From Candidatus Vogelbacteria bacterium (GTDB lineage Bacteria > Patescibacteriota > Minisyncoccia > Phycocordibacterales > XYD1-FULL-46-19): a stretch of DNA of 19,478 bases. The stretch lies in NCBI GenBank assembly GCA_026395035.1, contig JAPLZN010000084.1, positions 1 through 19,478 on the forward strand, given 5' to 3'. Below, piece after piece: positions 1 through 12,380 of this stretch. Position 1 is the first letter of the stretch, and each line of letters begins with the position of its first letter. The notes under the pieces are model-generated. The model was not told where the DNA came from and did not search any database. It was given only the letters and a program-made list of their open reading frames with translations. Made by a program: the position numbers and the translations under genes.

Positions 1-1494
1 GAAGAAAAAGAAGCCAAACGCGCGGCACGGCCGCCATTTACCACCAGCACCTTGCAACAAGTAGCATCGAGTCGCTTGGGCTATTCGCCTTCTATTACTA
101 TGCGTTTGGCGCAAAAACTCTATGAAGCCGGCCATATTACCTATATGCGCACGGACAGCATTAGTTTGAGTTCACTAGCAATAAACGAGATTGGGGCCTT
201 GGTCAAATCCCAATACGGCGAAAAATATGCCAACCCGCACAATTTCAAAACTAAGAGCAAGAATGCGCAGGAAGCGCACGAAGCGATTCGGCCATCTCAT
301 GTTGATAAATTGAAAGTCAGCGCAAGCGCGCAGGAACAAAAACTCTACGAACTAATTTGGGCGCGCGCCGTCTCTTCGCAGATGACAGACGCTCTCATTA
401 TGCGCACCCGGATTGAAGCCATGGCAAGCGACAAGTCTATCCCCTTGTTTATTTCCACCGGTTCACGCGTTATTTTTGACGGCTGGTTGAAAGCCGATCC
501 GCGTTCGGCCGGTGAAGATGTTTTATTGCCAAAGATCAAAGAAGACGATCCACTAAAACTGGAGGAAATCACTTCGACTGGCAAGGAAACCGAACCGCCA
601 GCGCGCTTCTCGGAAGCCGGGTTGGTTAAAGAACTGGAAAAACGCGGGATCGGCCGGCCGAGTACTTATGCTTCCATCATTAAAACGATTATTGATCGTG
701 GTTATGTCGTCAAGGAACAGCGCGCTTTAATGCCGACTGATACCGGTGAAGTAGTGAGCGATTTCCTATCGCAATATTTTTCCGATTACATCAGTGATAA
801 ATTCACGGCGGAAATGGAAGACGAGCTGGATGAGATCGCGAATGGAACCCGAAGTTACCTTAAAACTCTGAAAGACTTTTACGGCCCGTTTAAAAAAGAC
901 GTGGACGCCAAAAAAGATATTCCCAAAATCTCTGACCTGGGTAAAGCGCCAGCGGACATCAAATGCCCGGTCTGTGGCGGTCCGATGATTATCAAACTGT
1001 CACGCTCCGGCAAGTTTTATAGCTGTGCCAAATTCCCCGACTGCGCCGGCGCCCGCAAGATCGACGGGACGGAACTGGCCGCCCCGAAAGAGATCGGCGA
1101 GAAATGCCCGGACTGCGGTGAGGGCCAGCTCGTGGAGCGCGAAGGCCGCTTCGGGATGTTCATCGCCTGCAGTCGTTATCCCAAATGCAAATTCATCCGC
1201 AAATCCGAGAATGCCGACGGCACGAACCCCGGCGACACTGGTGTGGAGTGCCCAGAGTGTAAAGCTGGCACGATGGTGGAAAAACGCGGCCGCTTTGGAG
1301 TATTTTACGGCTGTTCCAATTATCCCAAGTGCAAAAACATCATTAAAGCCAAACCGACCGGCGCCGTTTGCCAGTACCCGCGTGACTACGGTCCCTGCGG
1401 GCATCTGATGATGGCTGGGACAAAAACGATCCCCGAGCGTTGCAGCGACAAAAATTGTCCAAATAACAATCCGCACAAACTAAAAGATAAGTAG
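1..1494 (+). CDS. topA: DNA topoisomerase I, 3' part (5' end outside window)
   Basis: Type IA topoisomerase that relaxes negative supercoils by cleaving one strand. The frame is open from base 1, so the N-terminal TOPRIM half is missing. The visible part begins in the conserved PPFTTSTLQQ stretch, followed by the active-site motif ITYMRTDS, whose catalytic Tyr is codon 142-144. The RPS(H)VD and GIGRPSTYA motifs of the cleavage domain follow. The C-terminus has three CxxC...CxxxxxC topoisomerase zinc ribbons at about 963-1053, 1107-1197 and 1248-1335, then a fourth Cys-rich segment ending at the TAG of 1492-1494. The family and orientation are certain. The unusual point is immediately downstream: a small structured element and a second, diverged copy of the last 60 bp of this gene, so the present 3' end may not be the ancestral one. 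Confidence 0.97.
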   Translation, partial: EEKEAKRAARPPFTTSTLQQVASSRLGYSPSITMRLAQKLYEAGHITYMRTDSISLSSLAINEIGALVKSQYGEKYANPHNFKTKSKNAQEAHEAIRPSHVDKLKVSASAQEQKLYELIWARAVSSQMTDALIMRTRIEAMASDKSIPLFISTGSRVIFDGWLKADPRSAGEDVLLPKIKEDDPLKLEEITSTGKETEPPARFSEAGLVKELEKRGIGRPSTYASIIKTIIDRGYVVKEQRALMPTDTGEVVSDFLSQYFSDYISDKFTAEMEDELDEIANGTRSYLKTLKDFYGPFKKDVDAKKDIPKISDLGKAPADIKCPVCGGPMIIKLSRSGKFYSCAKFPDCAGARKIDGTELAAPKEIGEKCPDCGEGQLVEREGRFGMFIACSRYPKCKFIRKSENADGTNPGDTGVECPECKAGTMVEKRGRFGVFYGCSNYPKCKNIIKAKPTGAVCQYPRDYGPCGHLMMAGTKTIPERCSDKNCPNNNPHKLKDK

Positions 1495-1496
1495 GT

Positions 1497-1628
1497 AGCA
1501 CGCAACCTGCGTTGCGTGCGCCACTAGTTTTTGTCGGGCGGAGCGTTACGAGGCCAGCAGGCCGAGTCACGAGACGGGGTCGCGGAAATTTTCGAGCGAC
1601 GGCGAGAAAATTATCTGTGACCAAAAAC
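1497..1628 (+). repeat. Small structured element at topA 3' end (CTGC-hairpin family)
   Basis: It starts three bases after the topA stop. A hairpin with a perfect 9-bp stem and CTGC loop lies at 1498-1519, preceded by A and followed by G. Next, GTTTTTGTC at 1527-1535 is the reverse complement of GACAAAAAC in the topA 3' end (1419-1427). The interior has two stem-loops in which GA dinucleotides face each other across the stem: GA-GGCC-AGCA-GGCC-GA at about 1550-1566, and AATTTTC-GA-GC-GACG-GC-GA-GAAAATT at about 1587-1611. It ends with GACCAAAAAC (1619-1628), which can pair with 1527-1535 (one bulge) and starts the second topA copy. The architecture matches the elements after tRNA-Leu and tRNA-Tyr. 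Whether it works as DNA (mobile element) or RNA is unknown. Confidence 0.6.
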
Positions 1629-1701
1629 GATCCCTGAGCGTTGCAGCGATAAAACTTGCCCGAATCACAACCCACAAAAACTGACACCAGTTACTAGTTA
1701 A
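1621..1701 (+). pseudogene. Displaced second copy of the topA 3' end
   Basis: Bases 1622-1683 match topA 1421-1482 at about 52 of 62 positions. Read in the topA frame the copy gives KTIPERCSDKTCPNHNPQKL and continues to a TAA at 1699-1701. Eight of the ten differences fall at third codon positions and seven are synonymous, so the two copies diverged while both were under protein-level selection. It has no start codon or ribosome site of its own. The simplest reading is a former topA C-terminus cut off when the element at 1497-1628 was inserted with a replacement end. A local duplication followed by neutral decay would not give this third-position bias. Confidence 0.7.
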
Positions 1702-1784
1702 CAATGAACAATTAGCAATAAAATACCTAACAAAATTTCACTAATACTGAAACACTGTTAATTGTTCACTGTTCATTGTATATT
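1694..1784. repeat. AT-rich inverted repeat before rel
   Basis: AACAATGAACAATTA near 1700 is the approximate reverse complement of TAATTGTTCACTGTTCATTG at about 1759-1778, so the gap between the displaced topA end and rel can fold into a long imperfect hairpin. It resembles the low-complexity intergenic repeats elsewhere in this window (3294, 15161, 15962). It overlaps the likely rel promoter. Confidence 0.5.
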
Positions 1785-1790
1785 GAGTCA

Positions 1791-3284
1791 ATGCTTCTCC
1801 TCGATCCCCAAGAGATTACCTCCAAAATGAAGAACCCGGCCGAAGCCGGTCGACGACTGGTCGCGCACGCTTTTTCGTTTGCCCAGAAAGCGCATGAGGG
1901 CCAACGGCGCAAATCCGGCGAACCGTATTTTCTGCATCCGTATAATGTCGCTCTGATCTTGGCTGATTTTGGCGCCGATGCCGAAACAATCGCCGCCGGC
2001 CTCTTACATGATACCGTCGAAGATACAGGTATTACCCCGGAAATAATTAAGAAGGATTTTGGGACAACCGTCGCCTTTATGGTAGACGGCGTGACCAAAC
2101 TGGGCGAACTGAAATACAAAGGTGTCGCCCGTCATGCCGAAAGTTTACGTAAAATGTTCGTCGCCATGGCCGAAGATATCCGGGTCATCGTCATCCGACT
2201 GGCCGACCGTCTGCATAATGTCCGCACACTGCAATATGTGGAGCCGGAAAAACAGAAGCGGATTGCGTTGGAAACATTGGAGATCTATGCCCCACTCGCC
2301 AATCGGCTCGGCATGTGGAAAATGAAAGGCCTTCTGGAAGACGCTAGTTTCCCTTACGCTTACCCGAACGAATATAAACAGGTTGTCACCCTACGAAAAA
2401 CCAAAGGCAAGGAAACCATCAAACGCCTGGAAAAAATCTATCGCGTCCTACAGGGAGCGCTGGCCGAACGCGGTTTCAAAGATTTTTCTATCGACTATCG
2501 CATCAAATATCTTTACAGTTTGTGGGCTAAATTGAAACGAAATAATATGGATATTGAAAGTATCTATGATATTTCCGCCCTGCGCCTGATTGTCGATAAT
2601 GTTGAGCAATGTTATCAGGCCTTGGGCATCATTCATAGTTTGTGGCGTACTGTTCCCGGCAAGCTGAAAGATTATATCGCCGGTCCCAAGCCAAACGGCT
2701 ATCAGAGTATCCACACGGCTGTTTTTACCGGCGACGGTTCAATCGTCGAAATCCAAATTCGCACCAAAGCCATGCAACGAGAAGCTGAACTGGGCGCCGC
2801 CTCGCACATCCTATATGACGAGGCCGGCAAGCCAAAAGGCAAAGATGCCGAAAAAAAGATTCCCAAGAGTATTAAATGGATCAGTGACCTGATTGAGTGG
2901 CAGAAAAACGTCAAGGAATCGGACGAATTTTTGCACACCCTAAAAACGGATTTTATCCGCGATCGCATTTTCGTCTTCACCCCCAAGGGAGATGTAGTAG
3001 AGCTTCCCAAGGGCGCGACAATGATCGATTTTGCCTATACGATTCACTCCGATATCGGCAATCACGCCTCTGGTGCCTGGATGAACGGTAAGTATGTGCC
3101 ACTCGACACGGAGCTGACCAACAAATGCACCGTAAAGATCGAGACCAAGAAAATCGCCAAGCCTTCAATCAAGTGGCTCGACTTCGCCAAAACGACCATC
3201 GCCAAACGCCATATTAGGAATTATCTCGGTCTGGAAAACAAACCGCCAGTCAAGAGTTTGTTTAATCGACTGTGGGGAAAGTAG
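1791..3284 (+). CDS. rel: RelA/SpoT-type (p)ppGpp synthetase/hydrolase, short C-terminus
   Basis: Bifunctional stringent-response enzyme of 497 residues. The N-terminal HD hydrolase domain has its ligands: His in FLHP (about 49), HD in LLHDTVED (73-74) and Asp in RLADRLHN. The synthetase domain follows with YRIKYLYSLWAKL, YDISALRLIV, GPKPNGYQSIHTAV and EIQIRTKAM. A TGS domain starts at IFVFTPKGDVVELPKGAT. The protein ends soon after the TGS, so the zinc-finger and ACT regulatory regions of full-length Rel are missing; ribosome-dependent control may differ. The start is uncertain: ATG at 1791 is used, a TTG lies in frame at 1776, and no Shine-Dalgarno is seen. TATATT at 1779-1784 would put transcription start about at the ATG, so the mRNA may be leaderless. 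Confidence 0.93.
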   Translation: MLLLDPQEITSKMKNPAEAGRRLVAHAFSFAQKAHEGQRRKSGEPYFLHPYNVALILADFGADAETIAAGLLHDTVEDTGITPEIIKKDFGTTVAFMVDGVTKLGELKYKGVARHAESLRKMFVAMAEDIRVIVIRLADRLHNVRTLQYVEPEKQKRIALETLEIYAPLANRLGMWKMKGLLEDASFPYAYPNEYKQVVTLRKTKGKETIKRLEKIYRVLQGALAERGFKDFSIDYRIKYLYSLWAKLKRNNMDIESIYDISALRLIVDNVEQCYQALGIIHSLWRTVPGKLKDYIAGPKPNGYQSIHTAVFTGDGSIVEIQIRTKAMQREAELGAASHILYDEAGKPKGKDAEKKIPKSIKWISDLIEWQKNVKESDEFLHTLKTDFIRDRIFVFTPKGDVVELPKGATMIDFAYTIHSDIGNHASGAWMNGKYVPLDTELTNKCTVKIETKKIAKPSIKWLDFAKTTIAKRHIRNYLGLENKPPVKSLFNRLWGK

Positions 3285-5340: not shown

Positions 5341-5407
5341 TGAAGTGACTCCTTTCGTGAGCGGTACTGGCTAAATTAATACCATATATTGATTAGGAAT
5401 CAAAATT

Positions 5408-5533
5408 CAGGAGAGGACTCTCGCCCAACGGGCGCTGGTACTTTTCTTTTTTATTCAGCTAAAAGCTTCATAAACATAGAAAAGTCTTTCTCGTCCTCAC
5501 GCGACTGGAGCAGTCCAGTCGCTTCCTGGGCAC
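5408..5533 (-). repeat. Structured element 2 after tRNA-Leu (CTGC-hairpin family)
   Basis: Read on the minus strand: GTGCCCAGGA (complement of 5524-5533, an inverted copy of the tRNA-Leu 3' end); a 25-nt insert with a perfect 9-bp stem and CTGC loop (5501-5522); GAGGAC (inverted copy of T-arm bases); a stem ACTTTTCT/AGAAAAGT enclosing TTTAT-GA-AGCT-TTT-AGCT-GA-ATAAA; a small GCCC-GTT-GGGC hairpin; and the direct 13-nt copy GAGTCCTCTCCTG of the tRNA-Leu T-arm/acceptor (5408-5420, identical to 5753-5765). GAGGAC can pair with GTCCTC to close the structure. The interior closely matches the tRNA-Tyr element, with compensating differences in the stems. Confidence 0.65.
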
Positions 5534-5541
5534 AAAGGAAG

Positions 5542-5721
5542 GGACTCGCCCGCACCTCTCCTTGTGCCGTCGCACTTCGTCGGGTTGCACCACAGGGGCA
5601 CTTCTATTTTGATAAATCAAAATATGTCGGGCACCGCCTCACGATCTCGCCTACTGGCTCGATATCGTCCCGGCGTTCGAGTCCTCACGCCAGCCAAGCA
5701 GTTGGCTGGCTTCCTGGGCAC
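5542..5721 (-). repeat. Structured element 1 after tRNA-Leu (CTGC-hairpin family, larger interior)
   Basis: On the minus strand, directly after the tRNA and its terminator: GTGCCCAGGA (5712-5721, inverted copy of the tRNA 3' end), a 25-nt insert with a 9-bp stem and CTGC loop (hairpin 5689-5710), then GAGGACTCGAAC (inverted T-arm copy, 5675-5686). GGACTCG pairs with CGAGTCC at 5542-5548. The interior is larger than in the others and includes ATC-GA-GCC-AGTA-GGC-GA-GAT, an ATTTTGATTTATCAAAAT hairpin, and GGCACAAGGA/TCCTTTGTGCC, which competes with the closing stem. It is arranged in tandem with element 2, as if the same site was used twice. Confidence 0.6.
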
Positions 5722-5748
5722 AAAAAATCGGCCAACGCCGATTATTTG
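5718..5748 (-). terminator. Terminator of tRNA-Leu
   Basis: AATCGGC-GTT-GGCCGATT followed by TTTT on the minus strand. Its lower stem is extended by pairing of the tRNA 3' end (CCTGGGCAC) with the inverted copy beyond the T-run, so the terminator and the tRNA acceptor strand are structurally connected. Confidence 0.65.
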
Positions 5749-5830
5749 TGCCCAGGAGAGGACTCGAACCTCCATGTCTTGCGACACACGATTTTGAGTC
5801 GTGCGCGTCTACCAATTCCGCCACCCGGGC
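5749..5830 (-). tRNA. tRNA-Leu (anticodon CAA)
   Basis: 82-nt type II tRNA read from 5830 to 5749. The 7-bp acceptor is GCCCGGG/CCTGGGC (one G-U). The anticodon loop is CTCAAAA with anticodon CAA (reads UUG). It has a long variable arm (TGTCGCAAGACA) and a T-arm with TTCGAGT. The discriminator is A and the 3' CCA is not encoded. Two structured elements carrying copies of its 3' end follow it. Confidence 0.95.
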
Positions 5831-5839
5831 AATGATCAT

Positions 5840-8832: not shown

Positions 8833-8904
8833 CGGGTCCAGCTGGACTCGAACCAGCAACTTTCGATTTGGAGTCGAAAATTTTACCATTGAAACTATGG
8901 ACCC
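8833..8904 (-). tRNA. tRNA-Trp (anticodon CCA)
   Basis: 72 nt, read from 8904 to 8833. Acceptor GGGTCCA/TGGACCC, anticodon stem TTCGA/TCGAA with loop CTCCAAA, and T-loop TTCGAGT. Discriminator G; the CCA tail is not encoded. The stop codon of the upstream LAGLIDADG-like gene (8895-8897) lies in its 5' part and the HD gene starts 5 nt downstream, so it is sandwiched in a protein-coding transcript. A tRNA-Trp near rpmG is a familiar bacterial arrangement, which suggests the endonuclease-like gene was inserted between them. Confidence 0.95.
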
Positions 8905-9554
8905 GTGTTTTTAATAAATTCTTCCGCAATTGCCATCAATTTTCTCTTCATCGAAGAATCATAATAATTTATACAAACACACCCCGGATACCCCTCCCTG
9001 CGATTTACTCCTGTGTGTAGTTTGTTATGAGGTCTCATAAACTGACCCCTTGGAATTCTAGCTGTTTTTGACCAAAAATTCAACTGTTTTTCCTTGTCAT
9101 GATAATCATGCAAGTGGACACAAACACGGAACTTACTTTCGTCGATTTCAAACCCCCGCCTAAACCATCTTAAAAAAGTAGCAATCATAGCAGGGTCAGA
9201 ATTGGTAAAACTCAGGGTACTTCGCAATCCCTTACCACCCTCGCAAGCATAAAGCAAAGAACAAGCAAACTGAGCTAGTTTCCTGTCTATTTTTATATTA
9301 TTTAGCAACGAGCGGGCATATTCCCTCGCCACGATATTTTTTTGTCTAGTAATCTCATGGTGAGCTTTAATCGACATCTCTTGCCCTTTGGTTAATTTTG
9401 ATCGAATAATCTCCTGAGCTTTTTTAGACAAGTTAGCATCTCTCACCCACAAAGATGCCGAACTTTTGGCTACTCCGAGCTCGGCTCGAATTTCTCCCAA
9501 AGAGTATCCTTTTTGCCGTAATTTTATTGCCTGTCTTTTGGCTTCCAGTTTCAT
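8895..9554 (-). CDS. HTH plus LAGLIDADG-like protein A, abutting tRNA-Trp
   Basis: 219 residues. An N-terminal helix-turn-helix (about 15-38, GYSLGEIRAELGVAKSSASL) is followed by a domain with LLYACEGGKG (100-109), FTNSDPAMI (116-124), RVCVHLHDY and FWSKTARIPRGQF (160-172). The same blocks occur in the protein at 11754-12380, so the two are homologous. The L-L-Y-x-x-E-G block resembles a single LAGLIDADG motif with Glu in place of the catalytic Asp, and the NSD..MI..F block also fits that fold; this is inference, and a transcription factor is an alternative. The TAG lies inside tRNA-Trp. A leaderless start fits: TTAGAA, 17 bp, TATAAC, then AGGGT before the ATG. The promoter contains the palindrome TGTTATATAACA (9567-9578). 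Confidence 0.75.
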   Translation of the reverse strand: MKLEAKRQAIKLRQKGYSLGEIRAELGVAKSSASLWVRDANLSKKAQEIIRSKLTKGQEMSIKAHHEITRQKNIVAREYARSLLNNIKIDRKLAQFACSLLYACEGGKGLRSTLSFTNSDPAMIATFLRWFRRGFEIDESKFRVCVHLHDYHDKEKQLNFWSKTARIPRGQFMRPHNKLHTGVNRREGYPGCVCINYYDSSMKRKLMAIAEEFIKNTGP

Positions 9555-11521: not shown

Positions 11522-11641
11522 CAGGATTCTCCCCCTACGGGGGCGGGTACTTTTCTTGTTTACTCGGCTAAAGCCTCGTAAACATAGAAAAGTCTTTCGA
11601 ATCCTGACGCGAGCAAAGCAGTTTGCTCGCTCCCTACGCAC
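11522..11641 (-). repeat. Structured element after tRNA-Tyr (CTGC-hairpin family)
   Basis: On the minus strand: GTGCGTAGGG (11632-11641, inverted copy of the tRNA-Tyr 3' end), a 25-nt insert with a perfect 9-bp stem and CTGC loop (hairpin 11609-11630), CAGGATTCGAA (11596-11606, inverted T-arm copy), a stem ACTTTTCT/AGAAAAGT enclosing TGTTTAC-GA-GGC-TTTA-GCC-GA-GTAAACA, a CCCCC-GTA-GGGGG hairpin, then GAATCCTG (11522-11529), a direct T-arm copy pairing with CAGGATTC. The insert interrupts the inverted copy at the same tRNA position as in the tRNA-Leu elements. Another short match to the tRNA (GGGCAGGAT, about 11476-11484) lies beyond it and could be an older remnant. Confidence 0.65.
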
Positions 11642-11676
11642 GAGAAAAGCCGCTTTCGCGGCCTTCTCTTTTCTCG
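11641..11676 (-). terminator. Terminator of tRNA-Tyr
   Basis: GCCGC-GAAA-GCGGC followed by TTTTCTCG on the minus strand. The stem is extended by CGAGAAAAG/CTTTTCTCG and further by the tRNA 3' end with its inverted copy. Confidence 0.7.
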
Positions 11677-11759
11677 TGCGTAGGGCAGGATTCGAACCTG
11701 CGTAGCCCGAAGGCGAGGGTTTTACAGACCCTTGTATTTGACCACTCTACCACCTACGC
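11677..11759 (-). tRNA. tRNA-Tyr (anticodon GTA)
   Basis: 83-nt type II tRNA read from 11759 to 11677. Acceptor GCGTAGG/CCTACGC, anticodon loop CTGTAAA, a long variable arm around CTTCGG, T-loop TTCGAAT, discriminator A, and no encoded CCA. The stop codon of the upstream gene (11754-11756) is in its acceptor stem and a structured element follows its 3' end. Confidence 0.95.
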
Positions 11760-12380
11760 ATATTTTGTCTTGTACTCTTCCATCCAGCCCATAATGACCT
11801 GCCAGAGTTTCTTGTCATTATAGCGAATATGTATTAAACCATACCGCATTTTGCCCTCTTTGCCAAGCTGGTAATCTTGCCTTACATATGGTTTGGTAAA
11901 CTGTTTGGCGGGTATTTTAGTAACATTGCTCCAGTATTTTATAAGTGCGACGGGGTGCTGATTAGAGTAGCAATACATATAAACCCGGAGTCGGTCTTCT
12001 CGGATACCACAAATTTTTCGTAAAAAATTCAGGAAGGCCTTAATCATTTCCGTATCGCTATTGGCAAAGTCAATTGTTTCTCCTGCCTTATAACCTTCAC
12101 CCCAATACAAGATGACCCCCAACAATTTTAATTCCTCGTCTTTCGCGCACGAACATTTTTTCAGGCAAAACGATAACGGCTTATGAGAAAAAGTAGCCGC
12201 GTTTTGTTCGCTTAAATTTCTCCGTTCAATATGATGTCGACGCAAAAAATAATAAACAGCATCGATTGATACATTTAATTTTTCTCCGATTTGGCGTGCA
12301 CTTAATAAATCCTTATAATAAAGGTTTTTAATCTGATCAAGTTTAGAATCTATAATCTTCGCCACGCCCTCATTATACAT
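11754..12380 (-). CDS. HTH plus LAGLIDADG-like protein B, abutting tRNA-Tyr
   Basis: 208 residues. N-terminal helix-turn-helix (about 24-50, LLSARQIGEKLNVSIDAVYYF), a basic linker, and a C-terminal domain with LLGVILYWGEGYKAG (86-100), FANSDTEMIKAFLNF (105-119), LRVYMYCYS and YWSNVTKIPAKQF (149-161). LLGVILYWGEG aligns with the LAGLIDADG block, with Glu at the acidic position. The C-terminal domain is clearly homologous to the protein at 8895-9554, while the N-terminal parts differ. The TAG is within the tRNA-Tyr acceptor stem. The start is uncertain: ATG 12380 overlaps a TATAAT; if that is the -10, a leaderless GTG at 12365 is more likely. Homing endonuclease or DNA-binding regulator remain open. 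Confidence 0.75.
   Translation of the reverse strand: MYNEGVAKIIDSKLDQIKNLYYKDLLSARQIGEKLNVSIDAVYYFLRRHHIERRNLSEQNAATFSHKPLSFCLKKCSCAKDEELKLLGVILYWGEGYKAGETIDFANSDTEMIKAFLNFLRKICGIREDRLRVYMYCYSNQHPVALIKYWSNVTKIPAKQFTKPYVRQDYQLGKEGKMRYGLIHIRYNDKKLWQVIMGWMEEYKTKYA

Follow-up and report, generated by a model that had tools for sequence, protein, structure and literature searches.

A family of ORF-less mobile elements of ~150-220 bp, which occupy the 3' portion of tRNA and tmRNA genes in Patescibacteria and carry arms made by fold-back copying, is on balance the probable explanation of a structured region behind tRNA-Tyr in the window, that is, the whole 19,478-nt stretch of Candidatus Vogelbacteria DNA that was analysed. 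The plan of the family comprises the full tRNA 3' half, a loop, an antisense copy that a 25-nt hairpin usually splits near the T-stem/acceptor boundary, a folded core, of which there are several types, and a distal copy of the 3' half, which continues through a second hairpin at some loci (L036, L052 and tRNA-His of G011). The tRNA 3' half, the loop and the inverted arm together form a long hairpin. The family is apparently large and unnamed, and it adjoins essential genes in a large uncultured bacterial group. No description of the element was found in the open-licence literature searched.

Elements behind tRNA-Tyr and tRNA-Leu in the window

ARAGORN places three tRNA genes on the minus strand of the window, namely tRNA-Leu(CAA), tRNA-Trp and tRNA-Tyr. 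The host gene tRNA-Tyr and its element consist of the following parts:

11676-11759, minus: host gene tRNA-Tyr(GTA) (ARAGORN; Rfam RF00005)
11522-11693, minus: whole Tyr element including the proximal copy, 3' of tRNA-Tyr
11677-11693, minus: proximal copy, the tRNA-Tyr 3' half (tRNA positions 57-73)
11641-11676, minus: hairpin loop linking the proximal and inverted copies (RNA fold)
11632-11640, minus: acceptor part of the inverted copy, TGCGTAGGG
11607-11631, minus: 25-nt CTGC hairpin AGCGAGCAAACTGCTTTGCTCGCGT within the inverted copy, where T-stem and acceptor parts meet (covarying 9-bp stem)
11596-11606, minus: T-arm part of the inverted copy (tRNA positions 54-64)
11549-11593, minus: core stem P2, ACTTTTCT/AGAAAAGT, with a tandem-GA hairpin (covariation; DNA fold)
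11531-11543, minus: core hairpin P3, CGTAG loop region (covariation)
11522-11529, minus: distal direct copy GAATCCTG of the T-arm 3' side, able to close the core (DNA fold)

The acceptor part of the inverted copy is 9 nt long, and a perfect 18-nt inverted repeat is present at 11632-11649/11668-11685. Folding of 11522-11640 as single-stranded DNA gave z = -6.9, and folding of 11522-11693 as RNA gave z = -11.8. The T-part of the inverted arm can pair with the distal copy in the DNA fold of 11522-11640, and with the tRNA 3' half in the RNA fold once the latter is included. Among random 300-mers preserving base composition only, a split inverted copy was found in 0 of 20,000 for tRNA-Tyr and in 0 of 20,000 for tRNA-Leu.

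At the tRNA-Leu site there are two elements with two different cores:

5749-5765, minus: tRNA-Leu(CAA) 3' half, proximal copy (ARAGORN)
5676-5720, minus: inverted copy of Leu element 1 (5712-5720 and 5676-5686) with hairpin 5687-5711
5541-5675, minus: core of the other type (GAACGCCGG..) of Leu element 1, with a decayed distal copy at 5541-5547
5488-5532, minus: inverted copy of Leu element 2 with hairpin 5499-5523
5408-5485, minus: core (5422-5485) and distal copy (5408-5420) of Leu element 2

Cores like that of Leu element 1 also lie 3' of other tRNAs in the same genome. The earlier note had claimed that the hairpin splits the inverted copy at the same place behind both tRNAs, 10 nt from the tRNA end, and that the interior of the Tyr element is shared with Leu element 2. 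The split is indeed at the same place (9 nt of acceptor sequence, or 10 counting C74), and the two interiors are 78% identical. A shared plan and interior combined with host-specific arms was moreover found in many genomes and not in the window alone, which confirms this first observation as correct and general.

Behind tRNA-Trp of the window no such element was seen by eye, and the covariance model described below (R1) had no match there either. Among ORFs of at least 80 aa, none overlaps the Tyr element; the only one overlapping an element of the window is an ORF at 5389-5835 (+), which is antisense to the Leu elements and extends into the tRNA. Except for tRNA, no Rfam family reached its threshold in the window, and none was significant in the Leu region at relaxed settings.

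Distribution and fold of the family

A BLASTN search with the Tyr element identified 36 places in 11 of the 16 genomes of the bacterial family. ARAGORN found a tRNA gene upstream on the same strand in 24 of the 30 loci fetched, and two of the remaining six (L012 and L020) contain a tmRNA gene, as does L108 of the genome of the window itself. The element lies 3' of the tmRNA at 1604-1983 (-) in L020 and at 1598-1980 (-) in L108. Against Rfam, a set of 30 fetched loci gave just tRNA, tmRNA and one distant LOOT RNA (RF03000, in L211), which lies kilobases from the element and was set aside. A hammerhead- or twister-like ribozyme was considered by eye and dropped, there being no Rfam match.

The covariance model R1 was built on 20 of 22 extracted copies (L025 and L027 left out) and, at E up to 1e-4, gave 360 matches in 99 of 197 genomes of the order, the other 98 having no match at this threshold. 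Among the R1 matches inspected one by one (L033-L060), 26 of 28 had a tRNA upstream, 24 of them at 5-52 nt and two at 187 and 229 nt. An exact core pattern, which selects one core type, was searched in contigs of 3 kb or more of 84,980 species genomes and found at 56 loci. The titles of 42 of these give a lineage, in all cases within Patescibacteria (including Vogelbacteria, Nomurabacteria, Taylorbacteria, Zambryskibacteria and Paceibacterota), and the other 14 read only 'bacterium' or 'uncultured bacterium'. A tRNA gene lies upstream of 49 of 58 distinct exact-core matches (the pattern search itself lists 59), with 26 anticodon labels. In a phylum sample of 379 genomes, order members included, 8 had a match and only G388 (49 bits) lies outside the order. 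No match to the element was found in viral contigs, phages or plasmids.

Several copies have well-formed arms with no tRNA or tmRNA found upstream (L004, L019, L022, L211, L213 and others); a decayed tRNA, the end of a contig or a host gene of a different kind may account for them. In L210 (1560-1889), the core occurs three times in tandem with 134-nt spacing, 3' of one tRNA-Ser.

The fold is supported by covariation. In the 20 copies, 24 of 34 pairs were changed on both sides, with a covariation score of 0.465 (0.156 in shuffles). For 107 distinct copies, which were aligned to the model and are hence biased toward it, 33 of 34 pairs had double changes and the score was 0.585 (0.164 in shuffles). 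G-U pairs were scarce in the 25-nt hairpin (12/902, 1.3%) and in P2 (18/1095, 1.6%), compared with 5.3% in the closing stem and 4.1% in P3; the tRNA T-stems and acceptor stems of the same loci had 5.3% and 3.6%, respectively. Being limited to two of the four helices, the low G-U content hints at DNA-level copying or DNA-level structure for the 25-nt hairpin and P2 and for no more than these.

The wide conservation of core and stems, together with an arm kept matched to its tRNA, would also be compatible with a structured RNA that serves the host at tRNA ends (in termination, sensing or 3' processing), is maintained by selection and has been duplicated between tRNA genes. We consider this improbable, as the distribution is patchy (the 98 genomes without a match at the threshold used; the same tRNA with a different element or none in related genomes) and tandem copies and remnants occur.

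Arms, host genes and retargeting

The inverted arms were compared with tRNA genes in 41 of the 49 tRNA-linked elements, those with a gap of <130 nt. On average, the 8-nt T-part of the arm mismatched its own tRNA at 0.34 positions and other tRNAs at 2.55, and the 9-nt acceptor part did so at 1.63 and 3.76, respectively. When the arm-tRNA pairing was permuted, 0 of 5000 permutations reached the observed sum of 81 (permuted mean 250.8, minimum 221). The own tRNA was the unique best fit in 34 of the 41 single elements.

In the fetched loci, an inverted T-part was present within 300 nt of 124 of 268 distinct tRNA genes, a survey in which most loci had been fetched for the element and tRNAs with <200 nt downstream or an unparsed T-loop were left out. 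The controls gave 50/1232 for the tails of other tRNAs and 35/1340 for shuffles. In protein-fetched loci (L070-L099 and L231-L239), the inverted T-part was found at 7 of 34 tRNA genes. The two arm parts are separated by 25 nt in 57 of the 124 cases, by 24 nt in 6, 23 nt in 3, 26 nt in 1 and 50 nt in 1, and the hairpin usually falls between tRNA positions 65 and 66 (±1), where T-stem and acceptor stem adjoin. Eight of the 124 were classed as contiguous, hairpin-less arms (L008 wrongly so), and these have cores of other kinds; in the remaining 48, a search that allowed 1 mismatch in 8 detected no acceptor part of the arm.

These results bear on the alternative of ordinary terminators plus chance. 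Many copies contain a terminator-like hairpin by eye, and the Tyr loop resembles a terminator, but a simple consensus terminator scan was positive there on the plus strand only, with no terminator on the tRNA (minus) strand. The covariation shuffles, the arm permutations, the T-part survey and the random 300-mers refute this alternative, and we regard it as scarcely tenable.

The distal copy had a mean of 1.61 mismatches of 8 in the T-part (41 elements) and a near-intact acceptor part (0-1 mismatch of 9) in 10 of 41. A three-way comparison of the T-part, possible in 36 of the 41 elements, gave 46 sites at which tRNA and distal copy differ, some of these distal mismatches stemming from core variants that shift the distal copy; the arm sided with the tRNA at 40 of them, matched the distal copy at 3 and matched neither at 3, and it deviated alone at 7 further positions. 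For the acceptor part (13 of 41 elements, 117 positions), all three were alike at 84 positions, the arm agreed with the tRNA only at 14 and with the distal copy only at 3, and the arm alone deviated at 16. In G013 and G014, the acceptor stem of tRNA-His is altered on both strands and the inverted arm shows the altered form; the distal copy of G013 keeps the form of G015.

The occupation of tRNA sites differs between related genomes. The cores behind tRNA-Trp and the adjacent tRNA-Tyr of G029 agree at 67 of 69 aligned bases, leaving aside 13 nt of gaps in a loop, whereas their arms fit Trp behind tRNA-Trp and Tyr behind tRNA-Tyr. In the sibling G166, no element is recognisable at Tyr and a different, truncated one lies at Trp, and both sites are empty in G111. 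In the conserved Val-Leu(GAG)-His neighbourhood, compared in six genomes of the bacterial family, all three sites are empty in G004, and Val and Leu in G012; G013 has elements at Leu and His and none at Val, G014 (whose contig reaches His only) has a tRNA-His element of the G013 type, and in G015 and G011 all three sites hold different elements. Neither an insertion event nor a pre-insertion site in a near-identical strain was seen among the genomes compared. The 1.7-kb tRNA-Trp/tRNA-Tyr segment (L121 versus L154) lies in opposite orientation relative to its flanks in G166, a flip that may have come from recombination between oppositely placed tRNA elements.

Core similarity follows the genome. 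In a comparison of the variable core parts (non-independent pairs; same-genome same-tRNA pairs and cores with <8 variable bases left out), cores of the same genome behind different tRNAs had a similarity of 0.602 (n = 23 pairs), significantly above that of cores of different genomes behind the same tRNA (0.512, n = 34; p = 0.0024), and the latter equalled the background (0.510, n = 1118; p = 0.42). The arms are thus acquired at the target, since cores track the genome and not the tRNA kind, near-identical cores bear different arms, and related sites are empty or differently filled.

The earlier note had also proposed that guide-like parts of the element match the host gene, as expected of an element that uses base pairing to copy or recognise its target. 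The match itself held, the fit to the own tRNA being far better than under any of the permutations, and the copying half of this reading is supported by the clustering of cores by genome, by the different arms on near-identical cores of one genome and by the siding of the T-part arm with the tRNA over the distal copy. That arms always match the adjacent gene was true for most copies only: 9 of 58 had no tRNA upstream, the tail of another tRNA fitted equally well or better in 7 of 41, and at tRNA-Gly(TCC) of the genome of the window the arm T-part fits the distal copy rather than the tRNA (by eye). As for the recognition half, an inverted arm acting as a guide, in the form of RNA or single-stranded DNA, would find its target tRNA gene by base pairing. 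The strong and maintained complementarity of the arm and the hairpin dividing it near the T-arm/acceptor border agree with such a guide, which would however predict core lineages tied to one tRNA kind; none were seen, and near-identical cores bear different arms within one genome. Since core lineages are not tied to tRNA kind, a carried guide receives no specific support, and we judge it rather unlikely.

Candidate enzymes, mechanism and known systems

No enzyme strictly co-occurs with the element in the 197 genomes (Y1_Tnp, RVT_1, the HTH/LAGLIDADG-like ORF and PF00589 were compared). Y1_Tnp was somewhat more frequent in genomes with the element (53/99) than in those without (36/98; p = 0.022) and was missing in 6 of 18 element-rich genomes. 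RVT_1 (39/99 versus 42/98, p = 0.67) has no link to the element, and a reverse transcriptase was set aside as the mover.

An HTH/LAGLIDADG-like ORF was more frequent in element genomes (52/99 versus 28/98, p = 8e-4) and was missing in 47 of the 99, including 6 of the 18 element-rich ones. Two such ORFs of the window, at 11754-12380 (-) and 8895-9554 (-), have an N-terminal HTH and a LAGLIDADG-like domain and terminate at the 5' edges of the tRNA-Tyr gene and the tRNA-Trp gene, respectively. All seven found with the Tyr ORF in this genome directly precede tRNA genes, and a profile search of the genome counts an eighth match. The seven-copy profile matches I-DmoI (E = 1.5e-4), and the stop lies -15 to 114 nt from the tRNA start in 25 of 30 loci of the order. 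Judged by these sequence features, the ORFs are putative tRNA-linked homing-endonuclease-like genes. No relative of the Tyr ORF was found in viral contigs. In L064, a serine-recombinase-like ORF (by eye) at 2-1282 (+) extends into tRNA-Asp, and the neighbouring tRNA-Met has an HTH/LAGLIDADG ORF. R1 at E up to 0.01, a model that under-detects other core types, matched 7 of 37 ORF loci (L061, L063, L065, L081, L089, L094 and L097). In the genome of the window, the element is present at 4 of 7 ORF-linked tRNAs (Tyr, Ile, Val and Gly), with none seen by eye at Trp, Met and Arg.

The element might be moved by an Xer-like recombinase, which is nearly universal, by the ORF in some of the genomes, or by nothing more than host replication. 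The first would be a cellular Xer-like tyrosine recombinase that inserts the folded element at the T-loop in the manner of integron and tRNA-phage integrases, the chimeric tRNA end being corrected later. PF00589 is present in 186 of 197 genomes, the fold is conserved while the stems vary, the tRNA-His acceptor stem is altered on both strands in G013 and G014, and the T-loop is used by phage Ms6 (PMC1762012). However, four of the 11 genomes without PF00589 at E up to 1e-8 bear elements (G000, G119, G120 and G196; 85-99% complete), and insertion alone does not produce the inverted arm. This explanation seems to us unlikely as well.

We tentatively favour the arms not being inherited but rewritten at each target by fold-back DNA synthesis, through which a gene-less core could colonise all kinds of tRNA and tmRNA genes, restore the gene end and keep its arm matched. 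The core would be inserted near the T-loop, an entry point suggested by distal copies that begin at or near position 57, some of which continue through the second hairpin. Strand synthesis would then fold back, first over the folded core and next over the downstream hairpin, and would copy the adjacent target once inverted and once direct, giving the inverted arm and the restored tRNA end. Afterwards, arm and tRNA would be kept matched by selection or by template switches inside the palindrome; such switching during DNA replication has been proposed to make and mend quasi-palindrome arms (PMC8794818). The weakest point is the 25-nt hairpin between two target-derived arms, of which one simple fold-back gives no account.

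If the arms are copied from the target, the element would need neither a guide library nor a sequence-specific enzyme to retarget, and would make a natural system for work on template switching, on the integrity of tRNA genes and on mobile DNA in reduced genomes. Annotation of tRNAs and other RNAs would need a mask or a model for the family.

IS200/IS605 and REP elements likewise have folded hairpins and target-linked short sequences. Here, unlike in that group, a Y1 transposase is not obligatory, and the arms are 17-20 nt long and match the target. Integron attC cassettes share a conserved fold with variable stems; their core sites were not seen by eye in this element, which is bound to tRNA genes. 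As regards group II introns and retrons, no Rfam match of that kind was found at the window elements or in the 30 fetched loci, nor was there an association with RVT_1. MITEs have terminal inverted repeats of their own and a fixed target duplication, whereas here each copy has inverted arms that follow its host tRNA, and the distal copies are of unequal extent.

Like the family, integrative elements and phages that insert into tRNA 3' ends target the T-loop or 3' half, restore the tRNA and have a distal repeat of the 3' half; the present elements do bear such a direct repeat on their far side. The T-loop is a known integration site, used for instance by phage Ms6 at tRNA-Ala (PMC1762012). The elements described here differ in being <0.25 kb, in occupying many tRNA kinds, in carrying an extra inverted copy of the target and in having no integrase of their own (ORFs of at least 80 aa in the window). 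Archaeal tRNA introns, which are described as transposing between tRNAs (PMC10714607), have similarly spread across many tRNA kinds as far as that source describes them; here, in contrast, the tRNA is uninterrupted, with complete tRNAs upstream by ARAGORN, and the element lies 3' of the gene. A parallel for the arms themselves is quasi-palindrome template switching, which, as presented in PMC8794818, makes and repairs inverted copies and changes both arms at once; that is a mutational process, whereas the element behind tRNA-Tyr and its relatives are probably mobile.
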